Origin: Phascolarctobacterium sp.
GTDB taxonomy: Bacteria; Bacillota; Negativicutes; Acidaminococcales; Acidaminococcaceae
Assembly: GCA_024405645.1 (NCBI GenBank)
Contig: JAKSOJ010000019.1
Coordinates: forward strand, 1 to 12,301
Length of the DNA: 12,301 bases
Direction: 5' to 3'
Of the stretch, positions 1-9,635 are shown one piece after another. Made by a program: the position numbers and the translations under genes. The notes beneath the pieces were generated by a model. That model was not told the DNA's origin, made no database searches, and saw nothing but the letters and a program-made list of their open reading frames with translations. Numbering within the stretch: position 1 is the stretch's first letter; each line of letters starts with the position of its first letter.

Positions 1-210
1 TGGACAACTCAGGTCTGTGGTTGAAAGTCGATGCCAGTTGCAGGCAAAACGATCCACGTAAGCAGTCAAATGGACTGTGAGCACGGTGCAGCTTAGAAGT
101 AAGACCTGCCGCGAAAAGCGAGAGAGGTAGTAGTGGGGAGCGAGGAATGCTTAGGAGCGAACCTTCCAGCAGGCGAGTGTGGGGGCGAAAACCAGGTCAG
201 CTGAGTTGTT
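1..210 (+). ncRNA. Structured non-coding RNA, possibly raiA-type
   Basis: This stretch has no convincing reading frame and is clearly richer in G+C than the AT-rich DNA that follows, as expected of a folded RNA. Bases 5-12 (CAACTCAG) pair perfectly with 201-208 (CTGAGTTG) and close a unit of about 205 nt. Internal hairpins include 63-67/73-77 with loop AAATG, and 110-112/118-120 with loop GAAAA, the latter extended by 104-107/125-128. Purine-rich loops such as GCGAAAA and GGGGAGCGAGGAA lie on this strand, which favours + orientation. raiA-motif RNA is a broadly conserved RNA of about this size in Firmicutes, found near the hibernation-factor gene. That gene often precedes secA-prfB, which lies 3.7 kb downstream here. 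Family assignment is inference from size, context and overall look; I could not match it to a model. The 5' end and promoter may lie outside the window. Confidence 0.6.
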
Positions 211-259: not shown

Positions 260-288
260 TTTACCTATTGACGCTTTCATTATATAAT
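260..288 (+). promoter_or_regulatory. Sigma-A-type promoter for the first binding-protein gene
   Basis: A -35 box TTTACC (260-265) is separated by 17 bp from a perfect -10 box TATAAT (283-288), giving a predicted start near 295 and a leader of about 40 nt. A competing reading uses TTGACG (268-273) with TGTAAT (292-297) at 18 bp spacing. The rest of 211-334 is AT-rich, and I see no operator or riboswitch in it. Confidence 0.7.
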
Positions 289-334: not shown

Positions 335-1114
335 ATGAAAAAATATTTAGTATGCGCATTAGCTGCATTGACCATGACTTCTATGATGGTTGTTGGCTGT
401 GGCGGTGGCGATAAAAAAGCTGCTGACAAACCTGCTGAAAAGGTTCTCCGTGTTGCAACTGAACCTTCCTTTGCACCTTTTGAATTCCAAAAGAAAGGTA
501 CTAACGAAATCACTGGTTTCGATATCGACCTTATTAAAGCCGTAGGCACTAAAGCTGGTTACAAAGTTCAAATCATGAACATGGGCTTTGATGCTTTGAT
601 TCCTGCTCTTGGCACTGGCAATATCGATGTTGCTGCTTCTGGTATGACTATTACCGACGAACGTAAAAAAGCAGTAAGCTTTACCGATCCGTACTACACC
701 TCTGGTTTGATTGTTCTTGTCGACAAAAACAACACCACCATTAAGAGCATTAAAGATTTGGAAGGCAAAAGAATCGCATGCCAAATCGGTACCACTGGCG
801 AAAAGAAATCTCGCAGCGTAAAAGGTGCTAAAGTAACCGCATTCAACACCAACGTTGAAGCTACTATGGAACTCAAAAACAAAGGCGTTGATGCTGTTAT
901 TAACGACGCTCCAGTAGTTGGTTATTTCCTGGCTCAAGGTGGCAATGAATATGCAAAGACTGTTGGCGAAGTTATGGAAGCTGAACAATACGGTTTTGCA
1001 GTTAAGAAAGACAGCAAACTCGTTGGCGAATTAAACAAAGCTATGGCTGAAGTTAAAAAATCTGGCGATTACGACAAAATTTACAAAACTTGGTTTGGCG
1101 AAGTTAAAAAATAA
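335..1114 (+). CDS. Polar amino-acid ABC transporter substrate-binding lipoprotein (copy 1)
   Basis: This is a family 3 extracellular solute-binding protein (GlnH/HisJ type) of 259 aa that captures a polar amino acid and delivers it to the permease encoded next. The start has AGGAGG at 322-327, 7 nt upstream. The N-terminus is a lipoprotein signal: Lys-Lys, a hydrophobic core, then lipobox VVGC with Cys22 as the lipid-anchored residue, followed by a short GGGDKK linker. The family signature GFDIDLIKAV is at 61-70. Arg110 in TDERKK is the expected ligand carboxylate contact, and Asp191 in INDAPV is the expected amino-group contact. The C-terminus YKTWFGE is typical. It is about 77% identical over 225 residues, without gaps, to the second binding protein at 2747-3514 (hand count). 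A strong terminator follows, so this gene is probably expressed above the permease and ATPase. The exact substrate cannot be read from sequence. Confidence 0.95.
   Translation: MKKYLVCALAALTMTSMMVVGCGGGDKKAADKPAEKVLRVATEPSFAPFEFQKKGTNEITGFDIDLIKAVGTKAGYKVQIMNMGFDALIPALGTGNIDVAASGMTITDERKKAVSFTDPYYTSGLIVLVDKNNTTIKSIKDLEGKRIACQIGTTGEKKSRSVKGAKVTAFNTNVEATMELKNKGVDAVINDAPVVGYFLAQGGNEYAKTVGEVMEAEQYGFAVKKDSKLVGELNKAMAEVKKSGDYDKIYKTWFGEVKK
437..1114 (+). repeat. Gene duplication, copy A (paired with 2837-3514)
   Basis: The mature parts of the two binding proteins align base for base at a constant offset of 2400 bp with no gaps. Stretches of up to 29 identical bases occur (740-768 versus 3140-3168). 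The signal-peptide regions and promoters have diverged, and copy A carries four additional codons in its linker. This is a paralogous duplication flanking the permease and ATPase genes rather than a mobile repeat. Confidence 0.85.
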
Positions 1115-1140: not shown

Positions 1141-1182
1141 AACGGAGCATAGCAAGTGTTCTATGCTCCGTTTCGCTTTTTT
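1141..1182 (+). terminator. Intercistronic rho-independent terminator between binding protein and permease
   Basis: A perfect 12-bp stem (1141-1152 with 1161-1172, core ACGGAGCATAG) has an 8-nt loop and is followed by TTTCGCTTTTTT. The T run is interrupted by CGC, which suggests partial termination. No promoter is visible between it and the permease, so the permease and ATPase must rely on read-through or an unseen promoter. This is a common way to make more binding protein than membrane parts. Confidence 0.85.
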
Positions 1183-1218
1183 ACCCTAATTTTTCGAGTT
1201 TTTGATAAGGATAAACCT

Positions 1219-1875
1219 ATGAGCATTAACTATGATATTATTGCCGAAAGCATTCCTCTTTTGATTGCGGGTGCTGGCATTACTATACAAATTACAGCTA
1301 CAGCAGTATTCTTTGGCTTCCTGATTGGTTGCCTGGTTGGCATTGCTCGTTTGTGCAATATTAAGGCTCTGCGTATGTTGGCTGCAGTTTATGTCGATTT
1401 TATTCGCGGTACTCCGCTTTTGGTACAAATCTTTATTGCATATTTTGCTATGCCTGCAATTATCGGGCATCGTGTCGATCCCTTTGTAGCAGCAATCTGT
1501 GCTTGCTCCATTAACTCTGGCGCGTATATCGCAGAAATTTTTAGAGCAGGTATCCAATCCATCGATAAAGGCCAAATGGAGGCCGGTCGTAGCCTTGGTA
1601 TGAGCTGGTCTCAAACTATGCGCTATGTTATTCTTCCGCAAGCGTTCAAACGCGTTATTCCTCCTCTTGGTAATGAATTCATTGCTATGTTGAAGGATTC
1701 TTCCTTGGTATCCGTTATCGGCTTTGAAGAGTTGACTCGTCGTGGTCAAATCATCATCGCACGTACCTATGCATCCTTGGAAATTTGGACCTGTGTAGCT
1801 TTTATGTACCTCATCATGGTACTTATTGTTTCTCGCTTTGTAGCTTACATGGAAAGGAGATATAAGACCGAATGA
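1219..1875 (+). CDS. Polar amino-acid ABC transporter permease
   Basis: This is an inner-membrane permease of the His/Glu/Gln/Arg family, 218 aa from the chosen start, in the usual size range. An ATG at 1156 in the same frame lies inside the terminator loop and would add 21 residues. The ATG at 1219 has AAGG at 1207-1210 with 8-nt spacing and gives the normal N-terminus [13 protein letters not shown]. Hydrophobic segments are visible at about 12-38, 52-82, 88-106 and 190-210. The coupling-helix (EAA) motif runs from EAGRSLGM (121-128) to YVILPQA (136-142) and contacts the ATPase. [10 protein letters not shown] at 61-70 is also family typical. It ends in an ATGA overlap with the ATPase gene, so the two are translationally coupled. 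As a short single permease it presumably acts as a homodimer. Confidence 0.94.
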
Positions 1876-2603
1876 GTAAAGATATGATTAAGCTTACCAA
1901 TCTGCATAAATATTTTGGTAAACTGGAAGTATTAAAAGGTATTGATCTCACCATCGCTGAAGGCGAGGTTTTAGTAATCATCGGACCTTCTGGCTGTGGC
2001 AAATCCACCATGCTTCGTTGCATTAACTACCTTGAAGAACCTACTGATGGTACTATCGAAATCGATGGTATGATTGTTAAAGGTGATGAGGGTATTAACG
2101 AATTGCGTAAAGAGGTTGGCATGGTATTCCAACGCTTTAACCTTTTCCCACATATGACTGTTATGGAAAACCTCACTTTAGCTCCTATCAACGTACGTGG
2201 CATTTCCAAAGCTGAAGCAGAAGAAACTGCTAAAAAGTATCTGACCACTGTTGGTATGCTGGAAAAAGCGAATGCGTATCCCGAACAATTATCCGGTGGT
2301 CAACAACAACGTGTTGCTATTGCTCGTGCGCTTTGCATGCGTCCAAAAGTTCTTTTGTTTGACGAACCAACTTCTGCTCTTGACCCAGAAATGGTTAAAG
2401 AAGTACTGGATGTTATGGTTGAACTTGCTGAAGAAGGCATGACCATGGCTTGTGTAACTCATGAAATGGGCTTTGCTCGTGAGGTTGCAGACCGTGTAAT
2501 CTTCATTCACGATGGTAAGATTTTGGAACAAGGTACTCCTGAAGAAATCTTTGATCATCCGAAAGAAGCAAGAACCCAAGACTTTTTATCAAAGATTCTG
2601 TAA
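1872..2603 (+). CDS. Polar amino-acid ABC transporter ATP-binding protein (GlnQ-like)
   Basis: This is the cytoplasmic ATPase that powers amino-acid uptake by the permease; 243 aa is normal for GlnQ/HisP proteins. All expected motifs are present: Walker [10 protein letters not shown] (38-46), Q-loop Gln87, signature LSGGQ (140-144), Walker B LLFDEP with catalytic Glu165, D-loop SALD (168-171) and switch His197 in THEMG. The C-terminal EQGTPEEIF is typical of this amino-acid subfamily. The start overlaps the permease stop by 4 nt (ATGA), and AAGGAGA lies 11 nt upstream inside the permease gene. A second ATG at codon 5 is possible, but its spacing is poor. A terminator follows, closing this transcription unit. 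The enzyme would serve both binding proteins of this locus. Confidence 0.96.
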
Positions 2604-2610
2604 AACAATG

Positions 2611-2643
2611 TCGTTACGCTTTGTGGCGTAACGATTTGTTTTT
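2611..2643 (+). terminator. Rho-independent terminator after the ATPase gene
   Basis: A perfect 9-bp stem (TCGTTACGC 2611-2619 with GCGTAACGA 2626-2634) has a 6-nt loop and is followed by TTTGTTTTT. It separates the permease/ATPase unit from the second binding-protein gene. Confidence 0.88.
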
Positions 2644-2671
2644 GTATACATTATTATTTACGCAAAGTGTC

Positions 2672-2700
2672 TTTACATGTATTAATATTCGTAATATAAT
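2672..2700 (+). promoter_or_regulatory. Strong sigma-A-type promoter for the second binding-protein gene
   Basis: A -35 box TTTACA (2672-2677, one mismatch from consensus) is followed by a 17-bp spacer and a perfect TATAAT (2695-2700). The predicted start is near 2707, about 40 nt before the ATG. Lying directly after a terminator, it makes the second binding-protein gene a separate unit. Confidence 0.82.
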
Positions 2701-2746
2701 GATACAAACTTATAAATATTCATTGAAATGTTATGGAGGGAATATT

Positions 2747-3514
2747 ATGAAAAAATTATTAGTATTTATCGTAGCTGCTATGACTCTCATGGCAATGTTG
2801 TTAACTGGTTGTGGTGGCGGAGAACAAAAAGCTGCTGAAAAAGTTTTGAAAGTTGGTACTGAACCTTCCTTCGCTCCCTTTGAATTCCAAAAAGAAGGCA
2901 GCAAGGAACTGACCGGCTTCGATATTGATCTTATTAAAGCTGTTTGCAAACAAGCTGGCTACAAGGCTGAAATTTCCAGCATGGGCTTCGATGCACTCAT
3001 TCCTGCAATTATGTCTGGCAATCTGGATATTGCTGTTTCTGGTATGACTATTACCGAAGAACGTAAGAAAAAAGTTACTTTCTCCGATCCGTACTATACT
3101 TCTGGTCTTATTATCATGGTTAATAAGGACAACAATGAAATTAAGAGCATTAAAGATTTGGAAGGCAAGAGAATTGCTGTACAAATTGGCACTACTGGCG
3201 AAGCTAAAGGCCGCAGCGTAAAGAATGCTAAAGTTACTGCTTTCAACAACAATGTTGAAGCTGCTATGGAACTTAAAAACAAAGGCGTTGATGCTGTAAT
3301 TAACGATGCTCCTGTTGCTGAATACTACCTGGCTACTGGTGGCAATGCAACCGCTAAGCTTGTTGGTGAAGTTATGGAAGCTGAAGAATATGGCTTTGCA
3401 GTAAAAAAAGACAGCAAGCTTGCTGGCGAATTAAACAAAGCTTTGAACACCCTGAAGAAAAACGGCGAATATGACAAGATTTACAAAACTTGGTTCGGCG
3501 AAAAGAAAAAATAA
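2747..3514 (+). CDS. Polar amino-acid ABC transporter substrate-binding lipoprotein (copy 2)
   Basis: This is a second family 3 solute-binding lipoprotein of 255 aa. The frame is open upstream to an ATG at 2621, but that start lies in the terminator hairpin. The ATG at 2747 has GGAGGG at 2735-2740 and directly begins a normal signal peptide, ending in lipobox LTGC with Cys22. The family signature GFDIDLIKAV is at 57-66, ligand Arg106 is in TEERKK, and Asp187 is in INDAPV. It aligns without gaps to residues 35-259 of the first copy at about 77% identity. Differences cluster around 75-90, 122-133 and 190-206, some of which may shape the pocket or the permease contact. It has its own promoter and terminator and no permease, so it likely shares the permease/ATPase just upstream. 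Whether its ligand differs from copy 1 is unknown. Confidence 0.95.
   Translation: MKKLLVFIVAAMTLMAMLLTGCGGGEQKAAEKVLKVGTEPSFAPFEFQKEGSKELTGFDIDLIKAVCKQAGYKAEISSMGFDALIPAIMSGNLDIAVSGMTITEERKKKVTFSDPYYTSGLIIMVNKDNNEIKSIKDLEGKRIAVQIGTTGEAKGRSVKNAKVTAFNNNVEAAMELKNKGVDAVINDAPVAEYYLATGGNATAKLVGEVMEAEEYGFAVKKDSKLAGELNKALNTLKKNGEYDKIYKTWFGEKKK
2837..3514 (+). repeat. Gene duplication, copy B (paired with 437-1114)
   Basis: This is the second arm of the duplicated binding-protein sequence. Direct repeats of this length flanking about 1.7 kb could in principle recombine and delete the permease and ATPase genes, but divergence of roughly a quarter of residues makes this less likely. Confidence 0.85.
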
Positions 3515-3567
3515 TAATCTAAAAGCTTAATAAAAGTTATAGAAATGACAAACTTTTAGACTATAAT

Positions 3568-3603
3568 GAGAGCCTAGAAAACTCTAGGCTCTCGTTTATT
3601 TTT
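3568..3603 (+). terminator. Rho-independent terminator before secA
   Basis: A perfect 11-bp stem (GAGAGCCTAGA 3568-3578 with TCTAGGCTCTC 3583-3593) has a 4-nt AAAC loop and is followed by GTTTATTTTT. It ends the second binding-protein transcript and isolates secA from it. Confidence 0.9.
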
Positions 3604-3615
3604 GCCTTTTGTTTT

Positions 3616-3644
3616 TTGCTTTTTAATGCGATTTCTGTTATAAT
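3616..3644 (+). promoter_or_regulatory. Extended -10 promoter for secA-prfB
   Basis: TATAAT (3639-3644) is preceded by TGT (3636-3638), forming an extended -10. A weak -35 TTGCTT (3616-3621) sits 17 bp upstream. The predicted transcription start is near 3651. The extended -10 probably compensates for the poor -35. Confidence 0.75.
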
Positions 3645-3653
3645 GTACAATTA

Positions 3654-3673
3654 GGTGTATAGTGTTTTACACC
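3654..3673 (+). promoter_or_regulatory. Stem-loop at the 5' end of the secA transcript
   Basis: GGTGTA (3654-3659) pairs with TACACC (3668-3673) around an 8-nt loop. It starts within a few bases of the predicted transcript start, then an A-run leads to AAGGAG (3683-3688). A T tract does not follow, so it is not a terminator. It may stabilise the message or act in control; this is inference. Confidence 0.45.
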
Positions 3674-3696
3674 CAAAAAAATAAGGAGTTACCGTT

Positions 3697-6174
3697 ATGC
3701 TCGAAGGACTTTTGAAAAAAATTTTTGGCGATCCCAACGAGAAAGAATTAAAACAAATTCGTGTTATCGTAGATAAGATCAATGGCTTTGAAAAATCTCT
3801 GGAAGCTTTGAGTTCTGGCAACTTGGCTGCTAAAACCAAAGAATTCCGCGTTCGTTTAGCTAAAGGAGAAACTTTAGACGATATTTTACCGGAAGCATTC
3901 GCTGTTGTACGCGAAGCTTCTCGTCGTGTTACTGGCATGCGTCACTTTGACGTGCAAATGATTGGTGGTATTGTTCTTCACCGTGGCAAGATTGCTGAAA
4001 TGCGTACTGGTGAAGGTAAAACCTTGGTTGCAACTCTGCCAGTATATTTAAATGCTTTAACTGGCAAAGGTGTACATGTTGTAACCGTTAACGATTACTT
4101 GGCTACTCGTGACAGCCGTGACATGGGCCGTATTTACGAGGCTCTTGGTCTCACTGTTGGCCTTGTAACCCATGATATGAACTATGTGCAACGTAAGCAA
4201 GCTTATCGTTGTGACATTACCTATGGTACAAATAATGAATTCGGCTTTGACTATTTGCGTGATAATATGGTTACCACACTTGACGAAATGGTTCAACGCG
4301 AACTCAACTATTGTATCGTCGACGAAGTTGACTCCATCTTAATCGATGAAGCTCGTACTCCGCTCATTATCTCTGGCCCTGGCGAAAAATCTACTGAACT
4401 TTACGAAATCCTAGCACAAGTTGTTGCAAACATGGACGAGGGTGAAGACTATACTGTAGACGAAAAACAACGCCAAGTTGCTCCTACCGAAAAAGGTATT
4501 GCCAAAGCAGAAAAAATGCTTGGCATCTCCAACCTCTATGACAATGAACATGGCATGGACTTCTCTCACCAAATCATGTCTGCAATAAAGGCAAAAGCTT
4601 TGATGCATCGTGACCGTGACTATGTTGTTAAAGATGGCCAAGTAATAATCGTTGATGAATTTACTGGTCGTTTGATGTTTGGTCGTCGTTTCTCCGAAGG
4701 CTTGCATCAAGCTATCGAAGCAAAAGAAGGCGTTAAGGTTCAACGCGAAAGCCAAACTCTTGCAACCATCACCTTCCAAAACTACTTCCGTATGTACAAA
4801 AAGCTTGCTGGTATGACTGGTACTGCCAAGACCGAGGAAGCAGAATTTGAAAAGATTTATGGTCTTTCCGTTGTTGTAGTTCCTACCAACAGACCTATGA
4901 TTCGTAAGGATGAACCGGACGTAATCTATAAATCTCGTATTGCTAAATATAAGGCTGCAGTTAACGAAATTTGCGAATGTAATGCTAAAGGTCAACCTGT
5001 TTTGGTTGGTACCACTTCTATCGCTCAATCCGAAGAACTGTCTGCAATGTTAAAACGTCGTGGCGTTCCTCATAATGTATTGAATGCAAAATACCATGAA
5101 AAAGAAGCAGAAATCATCGCTGATGCTGGTCAATTTGGTGCAGTAACCATTGCAACCAATATGGCTGGCCGTGGTACCGATATCGTGCTGGGCGAAGGTG
5201 TTCCTGAATTGGGCGGTCTCCATATTATTGGTACCGAACGTCATGAAAGCCGTCGTATCGATAACCAATTGCGTGGTCGTTGCGCTCGTCAAGGCGATCC
5301 TGGTTCCTCCAAATTCTTCCTGTCTTTGGAAGACGATTTAATGCGTCTCTTTGGTTCTGATAATATCTCTGGTATTATGGATAAATTGGGCATGGAGGAT
5401 GATGAACCCATTACCCATAGCCTCGTTACTAAGTCCATAGAGAATGCTCAAAAGAAGGTTGAAGCTCGTAACTTCAGCATTCGTAAGCATGTCCTTGAAT
5501 ATGACGATGTAATGAATCAACAACGTGAGGTTATTTACGCAGAACGTAAACAAATCCTCAACCAAGAAGACCTTTCTGGTAAGATTCATGAGTTCATTGA
5601 AAAGGTTGTTCAACGTACTCTGGCAATGTATGCTCCTGCAGAGGTTTACTCTGAAGATTGGGATTTGTCTGCATTGATTAACTATGCTGAAGACTTCTTT
5701 GCTTATCACGGACAAATCGAAAAAGAATATATCCAAAACTTGTCTCGTGAAGAATTGGATGAATATTTGCATGCAGTTGCAAAGGCTAACTATGATATTC
5801 GTGAAGAAACCTTTGGCTCTGAAATTATGCGTGAACTTGAAAATCTGGTAATGCTTAAAGTTGTAGATAATCACTGGATGGAACATCTTGACGCTATGGA
5901 CATGCTGCGTGAGGGCGTAGGTCTTCGTGCATATGGTCAAAAGGATCCGCTGGTAGAATATAAGTTCGAAGCATATGATATGTTCGAAGCTATGCTTGAA
6001 GAAATTCAAGATGACGTCGTTCGTTACATCTATCGTGTAAACGTAGTAACTGAACCTCAACATGAAATCGAAGAAGCCGAAGAAGTTCCTGAAATTGAAG
6101 CAAGTTCTGAAGAAGAAGGCGCTCCAGTTGTCATCAATGCTAGCGGCAACGATAAAAGAAGTTTTGATTTTTAA
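3697..6174 (+). CDS. secA: Protein translocase ATPase SecA
   Basis: SecA is the cytoplasmic and membrane-associated motor that pushes preproteins through SecYEG. The 825-aa protein begins with the typical [12 protein letters not shown]. Walker A MRTGEGKT is at 102-109, DEVD (Walker B) at 209-212 and LIDEART near 215-221. The preprotein-crosslinking region runs roughly 225-370, followed by AGMTGTA (371-377). The second helicase domain carries NMAGRGTDI (488-496) and an arginine-finger motif reading [11 protein letters not shown] (526-536); Ser-Gly or Ala-Gly is more usual where Cys-Ala stands. [13 protein letters not shown] (598-610) marks the helical scaffold. The tail (about 786-825) is acidic, ends in DKRSFDF, and has none of the cysteines of the SEC-C zinc motif found in E. 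coli and B. subtilis SecA. AAGGAG lies 8 nt before the ATG. prfB follows 30 bp later in the same transcript. Confidence 0.98.
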
Positions 6175-6204: not shown

Positions 6205-7311
6205 TTGTTAATTGAAGAATTCAGACCAGAAATCAACAATTTACAAGCTAAATTAGAAGAAATGCGTGGCTCCCTTGACATTGAAGTCAAGGAAGACCGC
6301 ATTGCTGAATTAGAACATAAAATGGGCGATCCTACATTTTGGGATGACCCAGATAAAGCTCAAAAAATCGCTCAAGACGTTAATGCTCTTAAAGAAGAAG
6401 TAGATGGCTTCCATGGTTTAAGTGCAGATGTTGACGATTTAGAGGCTCTTTGGGAAATGGCAAGCGAAGAAGGGGACGAAGACCTCATTCCAGAGATGGA
6501 AGAACTCCTTGCTAAATCCAAAGAAACCTTGGAGCATTTAGAATTAGGCATGCTGCTTAGTGGCGAATATGATGCTAATAATGCCATCATTACTCTCCAT
6601 GCTGGTGCAGGTGGTACCGAAGCACAAGACTGGACTAGCATGCTTTATCGTATGTTTACTCGTTTTGCAGAACAACAAGGCTTTACTATCGACGTGTTGG
6701 ATTTCCTACCCGGTGATGAAGCAGGTGTTAAATCTGCAACTTTCCAAGTAAATGGTCATAATGCCTATGGCTTCTTAAAATCCGAAAAGGGCGTACATCG
6801 TCTGGTAAGAATTTCTCCCTTTGATGCTAACGCTCGTCGTCATACTTCCTTTGCGGCGGTGGACGTAATGCCTGAATTGGATGATACTGTTGAAGTTAAT
6901 CTGAACATGGCTGATGTTCGTGTAGATACTTATCGTGCTTCTGGCGCCGGTGGACAACACGTTAACAAAACATCCTCTGCAGTTCGTATGACACATGAAC
7001 CTACTGGTATCGTAGTTGCTTGCCAACAAGAACGTTCCCAAATTCAAAACCGCGAAAAATGCTTGCAAATGTTGCGTGCTAAATTGTGGGAATATGAAAA
7101 GGCAAAACAAGATGCTTTAGTTAGCGATATTGCTGGCGACTACCAAAACATCGAATGGGGTAGCCAAATTCGTTCCTATGTATTCCAACCCTATACCATG
7201 GTTAAAGACCATCGTACTAGCTGCGAAACTGGTAATATTGGGGCTGTAATGGATGGGGATTTGATGAAATTTGTGGAAGCGTATTTGCGTAGTCAGCAAC
7301 GTAAGATTTAA
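6205..7311 (+). CDS. prfB: Peptide chain release factor 2 (RF2), no programmed frameshift
   Basis: RF2 reads UGA and UAA stop codons and triggers peptide release on the ribosome. The 368-aa frame starts at a TTG codon with AAAGG about 11 nt upstream, and aligns with the usual RF2 N-terminus. The stop-recognition tripeptide SPF is at 204-206 and the catalytic GGQ at 249-251 within RASGAGGQHVNKT. In most bacteria the gene is interrupted near codon 25 by an in-frame UGA at CTT-TGA-C and needs a +1 shift. Here the equivalent site (6274-6279) reads CTT-GAC (Leu24-Asp25), so the two halves are fused in frame, and the internal Shine-Dalgarno-like AGGGGG is replaced by CGTGGC. The autoregulatory shift is therefore absent. 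It is co-transcribed with secA. No canonical terminator follows; an inverted-repeat element does. Confidence 0.97.
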   Translation: MLIEEFRPEINNLQAKLEEMRGSLDIEVKEDRIAELEHKMGDPTFWDDPDKAQKIAQDVNALKEEVDGFHGLSADVDDLEALWEMASEEGDEDLIPEMEELLAKSKETLEHLELGMLLSGEYDANNAIITLHAGAGGTEAQDWTSMLYRMFTRFAEQQGFTIDVLDFLPGDEAGVKSATFQVNGHNAYGFLKSEKGVHRLVRISPFDANARRHTSFAAVDVMPELDDTVEVNLNMADVRVDTYRASGAGGQHVNKTSSAVRMTHEPTGIVVACQQERSQIQNREKCLQMLRAKLWEYEKAKQDALVSDIAGDYQNIEWGSQIRSYVFQPYTMVKDHRTSCETGNIGAVMDGDLMKFVEAYLRSQQRKI

Positions 7312-7465: not shown

Positions 7466-7556
7466 TCATAAATTGCTTGCGATTTATTCTTTCGCTCAGC
7501 AATCCTTTGTGCCGTTTGCTTTGTGTATAACTTATAACCAAGAAAGGTGTTCCTTC

Positions 7557-9635
7557 ATGAAAAGCCGTTATAATCCCATTTTACTAGTGGTTATCCTTAT
7601 AGGTTTTGTAGTTGCGTTGATGCTCAATGTGACTCGCCACGAAATCGAACAAAAGAATAATACTGTTGAAATGGCAATGGAGTATGAAAATCTCTTGAGA
7701 TTGGCTTCTCTAGAAGGTATTCCAGAAGAAAAGGTTCTTAAAGAATTTAAAGCTGCTGGAATTAATTCCCTCATGATTTTTGACACCACCTTGCGTCGTC
7801 TGAACTTTAAAGGCGATCTCATGGTGGCTACTGGGGAAGAACTCAGGGATAAAAAGGCAGGGGCTGTTTTTGCGAATGTTCCTGCGGATAAAATCGACAA
7901 GGATGCTGCCTTTATTTCCCCTGCAAAGGATGAAGCTATCTATAATGATGTAGTTGAAGATTTAAAACTTCGCTATGGTCAAGAACGTGTGGAGGAGGTA
8001 TGCGCAAGCCCTCGTATTACTCGCGTTTTAGGTAGTACTGCTATTATTCCTGACGATAAATATGACGAGCCCTTGGGCGTGCTTCAAGCTCCTTTAGGAC
8101 TGCCTATTCAAGATATGAAAAAGGTTAGCTCCATGGGCTTCAATATTATTGTTCGTCCTCAAAACTATATTAATCCTACCAAAGAAAAAATCGATGCGGT
8201 ATTTGCTCGTATCGAAAAAAGTGGTGTAAAGGTTCATGCTTTCATGCCTTGCGGCAAGGAATCCTTGGGTTATCCTAGTCAAATCGATTACCTAGGAAAA
8301 AAACTTAATGAAAAGAAAATGACCGTGGTTGGTCTTGAGCATTATACTCAACTGCAATTTGCTAAAATTGATGGCTCTATTCCATTGATGGAAGCTGTTA
8401 ATTATAAAGTTGCTCGTTCCTATGTTATTGATGGCTTGGAACAAAAGAAAATTCCTGTTGCCACCGCTCTCCATCGCTGGGCGCTTACAGATGAAGAACG
8501 CAACATTCGCGTTAATTATATTCGTCCCTTCTATATGCCCGTGGATGGAAAGCCTTTAATGGAAACCAATCTTCAATACGTGCGCGACATTGTTAAAAAT
8601 GTTAAAGCTCGTGGCTATGAGATTGGTGAGGCTGGTGTATTCTCTTCTGCTGAAGATTATGCTCCGTATTTCCCTGCTAAAATTAAATTCATACCTCTTG
8701 CTTTGGCAATCGTTGCGGGTGGTGTGCTTTATCTGTCTCTTATTCTTAACCTTTCCAAAAAGGTGGAAATTGGACTTTGGGCAGTGCTTGGTTTAGGTGC
8801 TTGTGCACTTCTAATGCTTGGTCGTGGATTATTTACACGTCAACTTTTGGCATTGGGTGCTGCTTCTATCTTCCCAGTTCTTTCCATGAATTTCATCTTT
8901 GATATTTGGGATAAGAATAAGACCAGTGATAATTCTTGCATTAAAATTATTTTTAATGGACTGTGGCAATTAGCTTTTGCTATTGCACTTTCTCTTGTTG
9001 GTGCGGCATTCCTGTCAGGTATTTTAACCGATAGCCGTTTCCTTCTTGAAATCGACATTTATCGTGGCGTTAAGTTGACCTTTATGTTGCCTGTAATCCT
9101 GACAGCAATTCTTTTTGTTAAACGTTATGACTTGTTGGAGGTTAAGGATGGCAATTTAGGCTTACTTGCTAGTCGTTTAAATAATGTTTTGGACACTCGT
9201 TTGACCTATAAGCATGTGGCTGCACTTTTGGTGTTCCTCATTATTGCTTTCTATTTTGTAGGTCGCAGTGGACATACTGGCGGCGTACCAGTACCTGCAA
9301 TTGAGCTCAAGATGAGAGCTTTCCTGGAACAGGTAATGTATGCTCGTCCTCGTGAAAAGGAATTCATGGTTGGCCATCCCATGTTCTTCATGGCTGTTAT
9401 GGCTGCTTATAAATGTGCTCCTAAACTTTTGCAATTTGTCCTGGTTTGCGCGGCTGTAATTGGCCAAGGAAGCTTAGTACAAACCTTCTGTCATATGCGT
9501 ACACCTGTTATTATGAGCTTTGTACGTGCACTTGACGGTTATGTTGTTGGCATAATTTTCGGCATTGTAGGTGTCATTGTTATGTCCATGTTCTTGCCCC
9601 TTATTGGCAAGCTTAAAAGGAGATATCTCGACTAA
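7557..9635 (+). CDS. DUF5693-family multipass membrane protein
   Basis: This 692-aa protein has one membrane segment at about 7-24, a large outward-facing soluble part (about 30-375) and a C-terminal bundle of roughly eight hydrophobic segments (about 377-399, 405-424, 427-448, 467-491, 507-521, 553-569, 622-640 and 660-682). I recognise it as the DUF5693 family, which commonly sits beside csaB in Firmicutes. The motif RPREKEFMVGHP (597-608) is a family hallmark, placed between membrane segments. The soluble part has alternating strands and helices, for example GINSLMIFDTTLRRL and GFNIIVRPQNY. The frame extends upstream to a TTG at 7473, but the ATG at 7557 has AAAGGTG about 8 nt away and directly begins a signal-anchor. 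Its biochemical role is unknown; context suggests a step in assembly or export of the cell-wall polymer that CsaB modifies. Its stop overlaps the csaB start by one base. Confidence 0.85.
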   Translation: MKSRYNPILLVVILIGFVVALMLNVTRHEIEQKNNTVEMAMEYENLLRLASLEGIPEEKVLKEFKAAGINSLMIFDTTLRRLNFKGDLMVATGEELRDKKAGAVFANVPADKIDKDAAFISPAKDEAIYNDVVEDLKLRYGQERVEEVCASPRITRVLGSTAIIPDDKYDEPLGVLQAPLGLPIQDMKKVSSMGFNIIVRPQNYINPTKEKIDAVFARIEKSGVKVHAFMPCGKESLGYPSQIDYLGKKLNEKKMTVVGLEHYTQLQFAKIDGSIPLMEAVNYKVARSYVIDGLEQKKIPVATALHRWALTDEERNIRVNYIRPFYMPVDGKPLMETNLQYVRDIVKNVKARGYEIGEAGVFSSAEDYAPYFPAKIKFIPLALAIVAGGVLYLSLILNLSKKVEIGLWAVLGLGACALLMLGRGLFTRQLLALGAASIFPVLSMNFIFDIWDKNKTSDNSCIKIIFNGLWQLAFAIALSLVGAAFLSGILTDSRFLLEIDIYRGVKLTFMLPVILTAILFVKRYDLLEVKDGNLGLLASRLNNVLDTRLTYKHVAALLVFLIIAFYFVGRSGHTGGVPVPAIELKMRAFLEQVMYARPREKEFMVGHPMFFMAVMAAYKCAPKLLQFVLVCAAVIGQGSLVQTFCHMRTPVIMSFVRALDGYVVGIIFGIVGVIVMSMFLPLIGKLKRRYLD

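Follow-up and report, generated by a model that had tools for sequence, protein, structure and literature searches.

The raiA motif is a widespread bacterial non-coding RNA, called ModT in Clostridioides difficile and raiA RNA in Clostridium acetobutylicum. Growing cells of these two species contain it at very high levels, and it works in trans on the transition from growth to stationary phase (PMC11706538). The phenotypes of its deletion were complemented in trans in two species, and in C. difficile the deletion of ModT raises c-di-GMP (PMC11706538). Like GOLLD, ROOL and OLE, it is a large, intricately structured bacterial non-coding RNA, but these three form multimers, whereas the raiA RNA was resolved by cryo-EM as a compact monomer (PMC12286853). 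Two pseudoknots, pk-1 and pk-2, and non-canonical pairs have also been described from cryo-EM of the raiA RNA (PMC11751092). The location of the motif near genes for periplasmic-binding proteins and near raiA genes has already been described (PMC11477304), and in an earlier survey, as quoted in PMC11706538, 66% of the RNAs had raiA genes next to them. The original prediction for the locus described below, made from its letters alone, called the function of the raiA RNA poorly understood; this is true only in part, since deletion phenotypes and cryo-EM structures are now in print (PMC11706538, PMC11751092, PMC12286853).

The locus lies in a Phascolarctobacterium sp. assembly (family Acidaminococcaceae, class Negativicutes), in a stretch of 12,301 nucleotides which forms a whole contig and which we refer to as the window. 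A search of the window against Rfam returned the raiA-motif family, RF03072, at bases 4–209 of the forward strand, spanning model positions 1–209 of 209 with a score of 198.3 bits (E = 1.2e-51) against a curated cut-off of 101.3 bits. No other Rfam family matched at gathering scores anywhere in the window, and the match is the single one to RF03072 in the assembly (1.4 Mb, 73% complete). The feature, its coordinates and its family had all been predicted correctly, as had its setting in a G+C-rich block free of open reading frames: G+C content is 0.50–0.59 over bases 1–200 versus 0.21–0.23 over bases 201–350 (measured in segments 100 bases long), and no open reading frame of at least 80 amino acids overlaps bases 1–210 on either strand. 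In an alignment of 88 distinct copies, the window itself among them, 105 columns reach a conservation of 97% or more, and at every one of them the window carries the majority base. Bases 4–209 are almost certainly a raiA-motif (ModT) RNA, and the object itself is a further copy of a known RNA class with its core intact. With other RF03072 RNAs it shares the whole model, the terminal helix P1, the pseudoknot pk-1 and the periplasmic-binding neighbourhood (Table 1).

Table 1 Features of the window, with the evidence for each.
Feature	Position	Strand	Evidence
raiA-motif (ModT) RNA, full length	4–209	+	RF03072 match; 105/105 conserved columns kept
P1 terminal helix, 5′ arm	4–12	+	Pairs with 201–209
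Pseudoknot pk-1, P3 loop half	36–42	+	Seven pairs with 87–93; assigned here after the description in PMC11751092
Pseudoknot pk-1, pk-loop half	87–93	+	Pairs with 36–42
Insertion point of longer relatives	114–115	+	Extra bases after base 114
P1 terminal helix, 3′ arm	201–209	+	Pairs with 4–12
Promoter-like site between RNA and transporter	260–288	+	TTTACC-17-TATAAT, consensus match
Amino-acid ABC transporter substrate-binding protein	335–1114	+	PF00497, E = 7.7e-43; best NCBIfam match GlnH, below its cut-off
Transporter permease	1156–1875	+	PF00528, E = 9.2e-27; first in-frame start, true start may be later
Transporter ATPase	1872–2603	+	PF00005, E = 4e-41
Second substrate-binding protein	2621–3514	+	PF00497, E = 1.6e-44; first in-frame start, true start may be later
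secA	3697–6174	+	PF07517, E = 5.8e-135
prfB, open frame from 6205	6205–7311	+	PF03462 and PF00472

The structure of the RNA was compared across 92 aligned copies, of which 88 are distinct; 56 of the 92 come from the family and the other 36 from elsewhere in the class; the copy in genome G040, cut by a contig end, had been removed before alignment. The perfect 8-bp helix that had been proposed to close the block (5–12/201–208) is present in the window and extends by one further pair to 4–12/201–209. In the 88 distinct copies, 723 of 789 P1 cells are paired; with the 3′ arms swapped between sequences (300 swaps), the count averages 543.9 and never exceeds 573. Pairing counted end to end, without the alignment, gave 723 of 792 cells, and the corresponding 500 swaps averaged 532.4 and peaked at 562. 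A-U, G-C, C-G and U-A pairs interchange among the copies, the compensatory change for which the original prediction had suggested looking in relatives. For pk-1, 607 of 616 cells are paired (swap mean 575.5, maximum 583), and both sides change at 39/90 and at 42/87. P1 and pk-1 are thus both present in the window and covary across the copies. Pairing in P3a, P3b and the other inner P1 pairs is no higher than in their own swaps across the 88 copies, so these elements are uninformative on covariation, and a guessed fifth inner P1 pair, 18/192, was discarded as it forms in 0 of 88 copies. The minimum-energy fold is unremarkable (z = −1.15, with 26 of 200 shuffles equally or more stable); a plain minimum-energy fold cannot represent pseudoknots and this z was not used as evidence. 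Five long copies of 239–285 nt, including L113 (G035), L114 (G036) and L162 (G055), carry 31–78 extra bases, all in one place, after the base corresponding to 114 in the window.

Within the family the RNA was found in 57 of 59 genomes, in 56 of them over the cut-off; no match was obtained in G030 (63% complete) or in G039 (95%), and the copy in G040 is cut off 2 bases from the contig end. Across the class, 181 of 300 genomes gave a match, none of them in family f15. Spo0A was matched in 0 of the 59 family genomes by a search that did match in the Bacillus subtilis genome used as a control. In a hand tally over the class, the RNA is present in 51 of 56 genomes with Spo0A versus 130 of 244 without; it is commoner in the company of Spo0A, yet not dependent on it, and this difference fits a sporulation link and shared ancestry alike. 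A GGDEF domain found no match in 30 of the 59 family genomes, and a full RNA is present in 28 of these 30; among the 16 with a completeness of 95% or more, 15 have it. The domain of the ribosome hibernation factor found no match in six of the 59, and five of these carry a full RNA, namely G013 (100% complete), G041 (98%), G012 (89%), G000 (73%) and G037 (60%), although the genome of the window (73%), G037 and G012 may merely miss the domain through incompleteness. As the RNA is kept without Spo0A, without GGDEF and without the hibernation factor, none of the three can be its universal partner.

The genes downstream of the RNA follow a usual order in the family: at least one substrate-binding gene, a permease, an ATPase, a hibernation-factor gene and secA. 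Where sequence downstream of the RNA is available, 48 of 54 family loci have a substrate-binding gene there, and a hibernation-factor gene was seen downstream in 41 of 57, the sequence of several loci stopping at contig ends. Beyond the family, many further families of the class likewise have transporter and hibernation-factor genes after the RNA. In the window, a second substrate-binding gene fills the place of the hibernation-factor gene between the ATPase and secA (2604–3696); no hibernation-factor gene was found in this slot and no match to its domain in the rest of the 73%-complete assembly. The absence of this gene from its slot and of Spo0A from the family, known here from sequence, sets the locus apart from the studied raiA/ModT carriers. 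The secA-prfB neighbourhood named in the original prediction is there, both genes lying downstream. A 720-aa open frame (7473–9635), flanked by prfB and a gene for a polysaccharide pyruvyl transferase, matches DUF5693 (E = 1e-177). Transporter and hibernation-factor gene are both missing from the locus in G012 and G013, where secA begins about 300 bases after the RNA, and at seven loci of families f7 and f35 none of the neighbours searched for is present.

Among 36 loci of the other families, 20 have a frame with a zinc-finger domain (zf_Tbcl, PF13451) after the RNA, the domain having been typed in one of them; L187:6225–6590 is an example, alongside 19 further loci. The first start lies 34–42 bases after the RNA in 13 of the 20, whilst the frame opens earlier in the other seven. 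A promoter would hardly fit into a gap of 34–42 bases, and the RNA may therefore belong to the leader of the zinc-finger gene at these loci. As an obligate partner of the RNA this gene was rejected, because the domain occurs in 225 of the 300 class genomes, many of them in the RNA-less family f15, and found no match in the RNA carriers of genus g2.

On the other side of the RNA, an HD_5 protein gene (PF13487, E = 2.1e-39) stands upstream in divergent orientation in 54 of 57 family loci, and the remaining three have 0, 3 and 154 bases of upstream sequence. A stand-alone HD-GYP-like gene is found, for example, at L141:4560–5186, and such genes stay in many genomes without GGDEF. All 57 HD-GYP-like neighbours compared, 52 from the family and five from families f28 and f31, retain the HD and HHE residues, but only two have the K after HDIG; in the VAD motif further on, the D is unchanged in 25 and replaced by N in 32. 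In other families, as in genomes G063, G085, G111, G115 and G134, 20 kb or more separate the RNA from the closest HD relative upstream, and at the sole locus that was typed, in G115, fliD and fliS are upstream of the RNA. With a distant HD relative and flagellar genes beside the RNA elsewhere, loss of the intervening genes can explain the adjacency seen in the family, and the HD-GYP-like gene was provisionally set aside as a dedicated partner, a step against which the tally of class genomes given below speaks.

The contig starts 3 bases 5′ of the RNA, so the upstream region of the RNA is invisible in the genome of the window. In relatives, the best promoter-like sites in the 70 bases 5′ of the RNA have a mean of 9.76 out of 12 matches, compared with 7.47 for shuffled bases (91 of 93 loci scored, the sequence of the other two being too short), which suggests that the RNA of the window would have a sigma-70-type promoter of its own, lying a short way beyond the start of the contig. 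The RNA lies less than 200 bases from a contig end in six of 57 family loci (the window, at bases 1–3, G020, G027, G037, G040 and G048) versus 1.07 expected (P about 0.0006, for a cut-off of 200 bases picked after the cases were seen); strong conservation between co-resident species may break assemblies at the RNA, as it does with rRNA.

Three other explanations have to be weighed against a stand-alone RNA. The type label that Rfam gives to RF03072, ‘Cis-reg; riboswitch’, suggests a cis-acting, riboswitch-like leader controlling the adjacent amino-acid transporter; the frequency with which a substrate-binding gene comes after the RNA is in keeping with this, as is the lack of any terminator-like site found in bases 210–334. 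The stretch between RNA and transporter speaks differently from genus to genus. The promoter-like site in the window is the sole one in bases 1–1200, and alone it is no evidence, as shuffles give a mean of 2.3 such sites; the same hexamers and spacing, however, recur with different spacers at all five loci that could be scored in the genus of the window. Genus g17 has 11 scored gaps, none of which reaches nine of 12 matches, so transcription may read through into the transporter there. Family-wide 20 of 34 gaps reach nine matches (mean 8.12 versus 7.71 in shuffles), the 34 scored being drawn from 57 loci of which the rest had no start passing the pattern or a gap of less than 40 bases. A separate transporter promoter, as had been predicted, is thus supported by consensus matches as a putative element in the genus of the window, and is not supported across the family. 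Apart from the promoter, the association with the gene is not constant, with six of 54 loci lacking a substrate-binding gene besides the f7 and f35 loci without any searched neighbour, and the RNA stays where the adjoining transporter is gone (G012, G013, G028, G033, G034 and G041). Since deletions can also be complemented in trans (PMC11706538), we consider control of the transporter in cis very unlikely, and the RNA is likely to act in trans and stand-alone. The original prediction had likewise argued against a cis riboswitch, a view supported for the genus by the recurring promoter-like site and for the class by the published complementation.

An RNA working with the ribosome hibernation factor (raiA/hpf, the namesake of the motif), for instance by controlling or binding it, would account for the 41 of 57 family loci with the gene downstream and for the 66% of the earlier survey. 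It is at odds with the five genomes in which a full RNA persists without a domain match, and with G012 and G013, which hold nothing of the factor between RNA and secA; such a partnership seems very improbable as the conserved role. The conserved task might instead be the setting of c-di-GMP levels, perhaps with the divergent HD-GYP-like gene upstream, a reading to which both the rise of c-di-GMP after deletion in C. difficile and the adjacency in the family lend weight. It also draws on a hand tally of 120 class genomes, in which the RNA is present in 84 of 85 with a close HD relative versus nine of 20 listed without one, a further 15 without a close HD relative being unlisted and outside these 20; family f15, with no RNA among the 181 positives, may drive this contrast. 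Set against it are the 28 of 30 GGDEF-less family genomes that keep a full RNA, those with a full RNA and no close HD relative (for example G127, G061, G062, G072 and G074), and the distance of the HD relative in other families, where gene loss can explain the adjacency. We therefore judge a conserved c-di-GMP task to be unlikely.

The explanation we prefer is that bases 4–209 are a stand-alone raiA-motif (ModT) non-coding RNA with a role in trans, and this we hold to be highly probable; a general job behind that role is a step at about even odds. Its conserved molecular job would, from the pattern of genes, either be separate from sporulation, c-di-GMP and ribosome hibernation or act ahead of them; a general function, for example on stable RNAs or translation, appears more likely, and its loss would lead to stationary-phase defects that are specific to each species. 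Taking the retention pattern together with the published action in trans, we tentatively treat the common task as general and the sporulation and c-di-GMP effects as consequences. In its most specific form, namely a general task in growing cells (for example on tRNA, 5S RNA or ribosomes) which needs neither sporulation nor c-di-GMP nor the hibernation factor, with the published sporulation and c-di-GMP effects downstream of it, we find the proposal evenly balanced between right and wrong.

Transporter, hibernation-factor, HD-GYP-like and zinc-finger genes are each absent in some carriers, and the neighbours of the RNA are a poor guide to its function. The useful part is the pattern of retention: the RNA keeps its core unchanged in a family where Spo0A is undetected throughout and a c-di-GMP synthase domain goes undetected in half of the genomes. 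We did not meet this argument in a literature search based on excerpts, which did not extend to the main synteny paper, Soares et al. 2024, and claim no priority for it. Because the two studied pathways can be avoided by the choice of organism, a direct role of the RNA becomes easier to test, and if the general task is real, relatives of Phascolarctobacterium that have neither Spo0A nor GGDEF would offer a clean background for identifying the direct target of the RNA.
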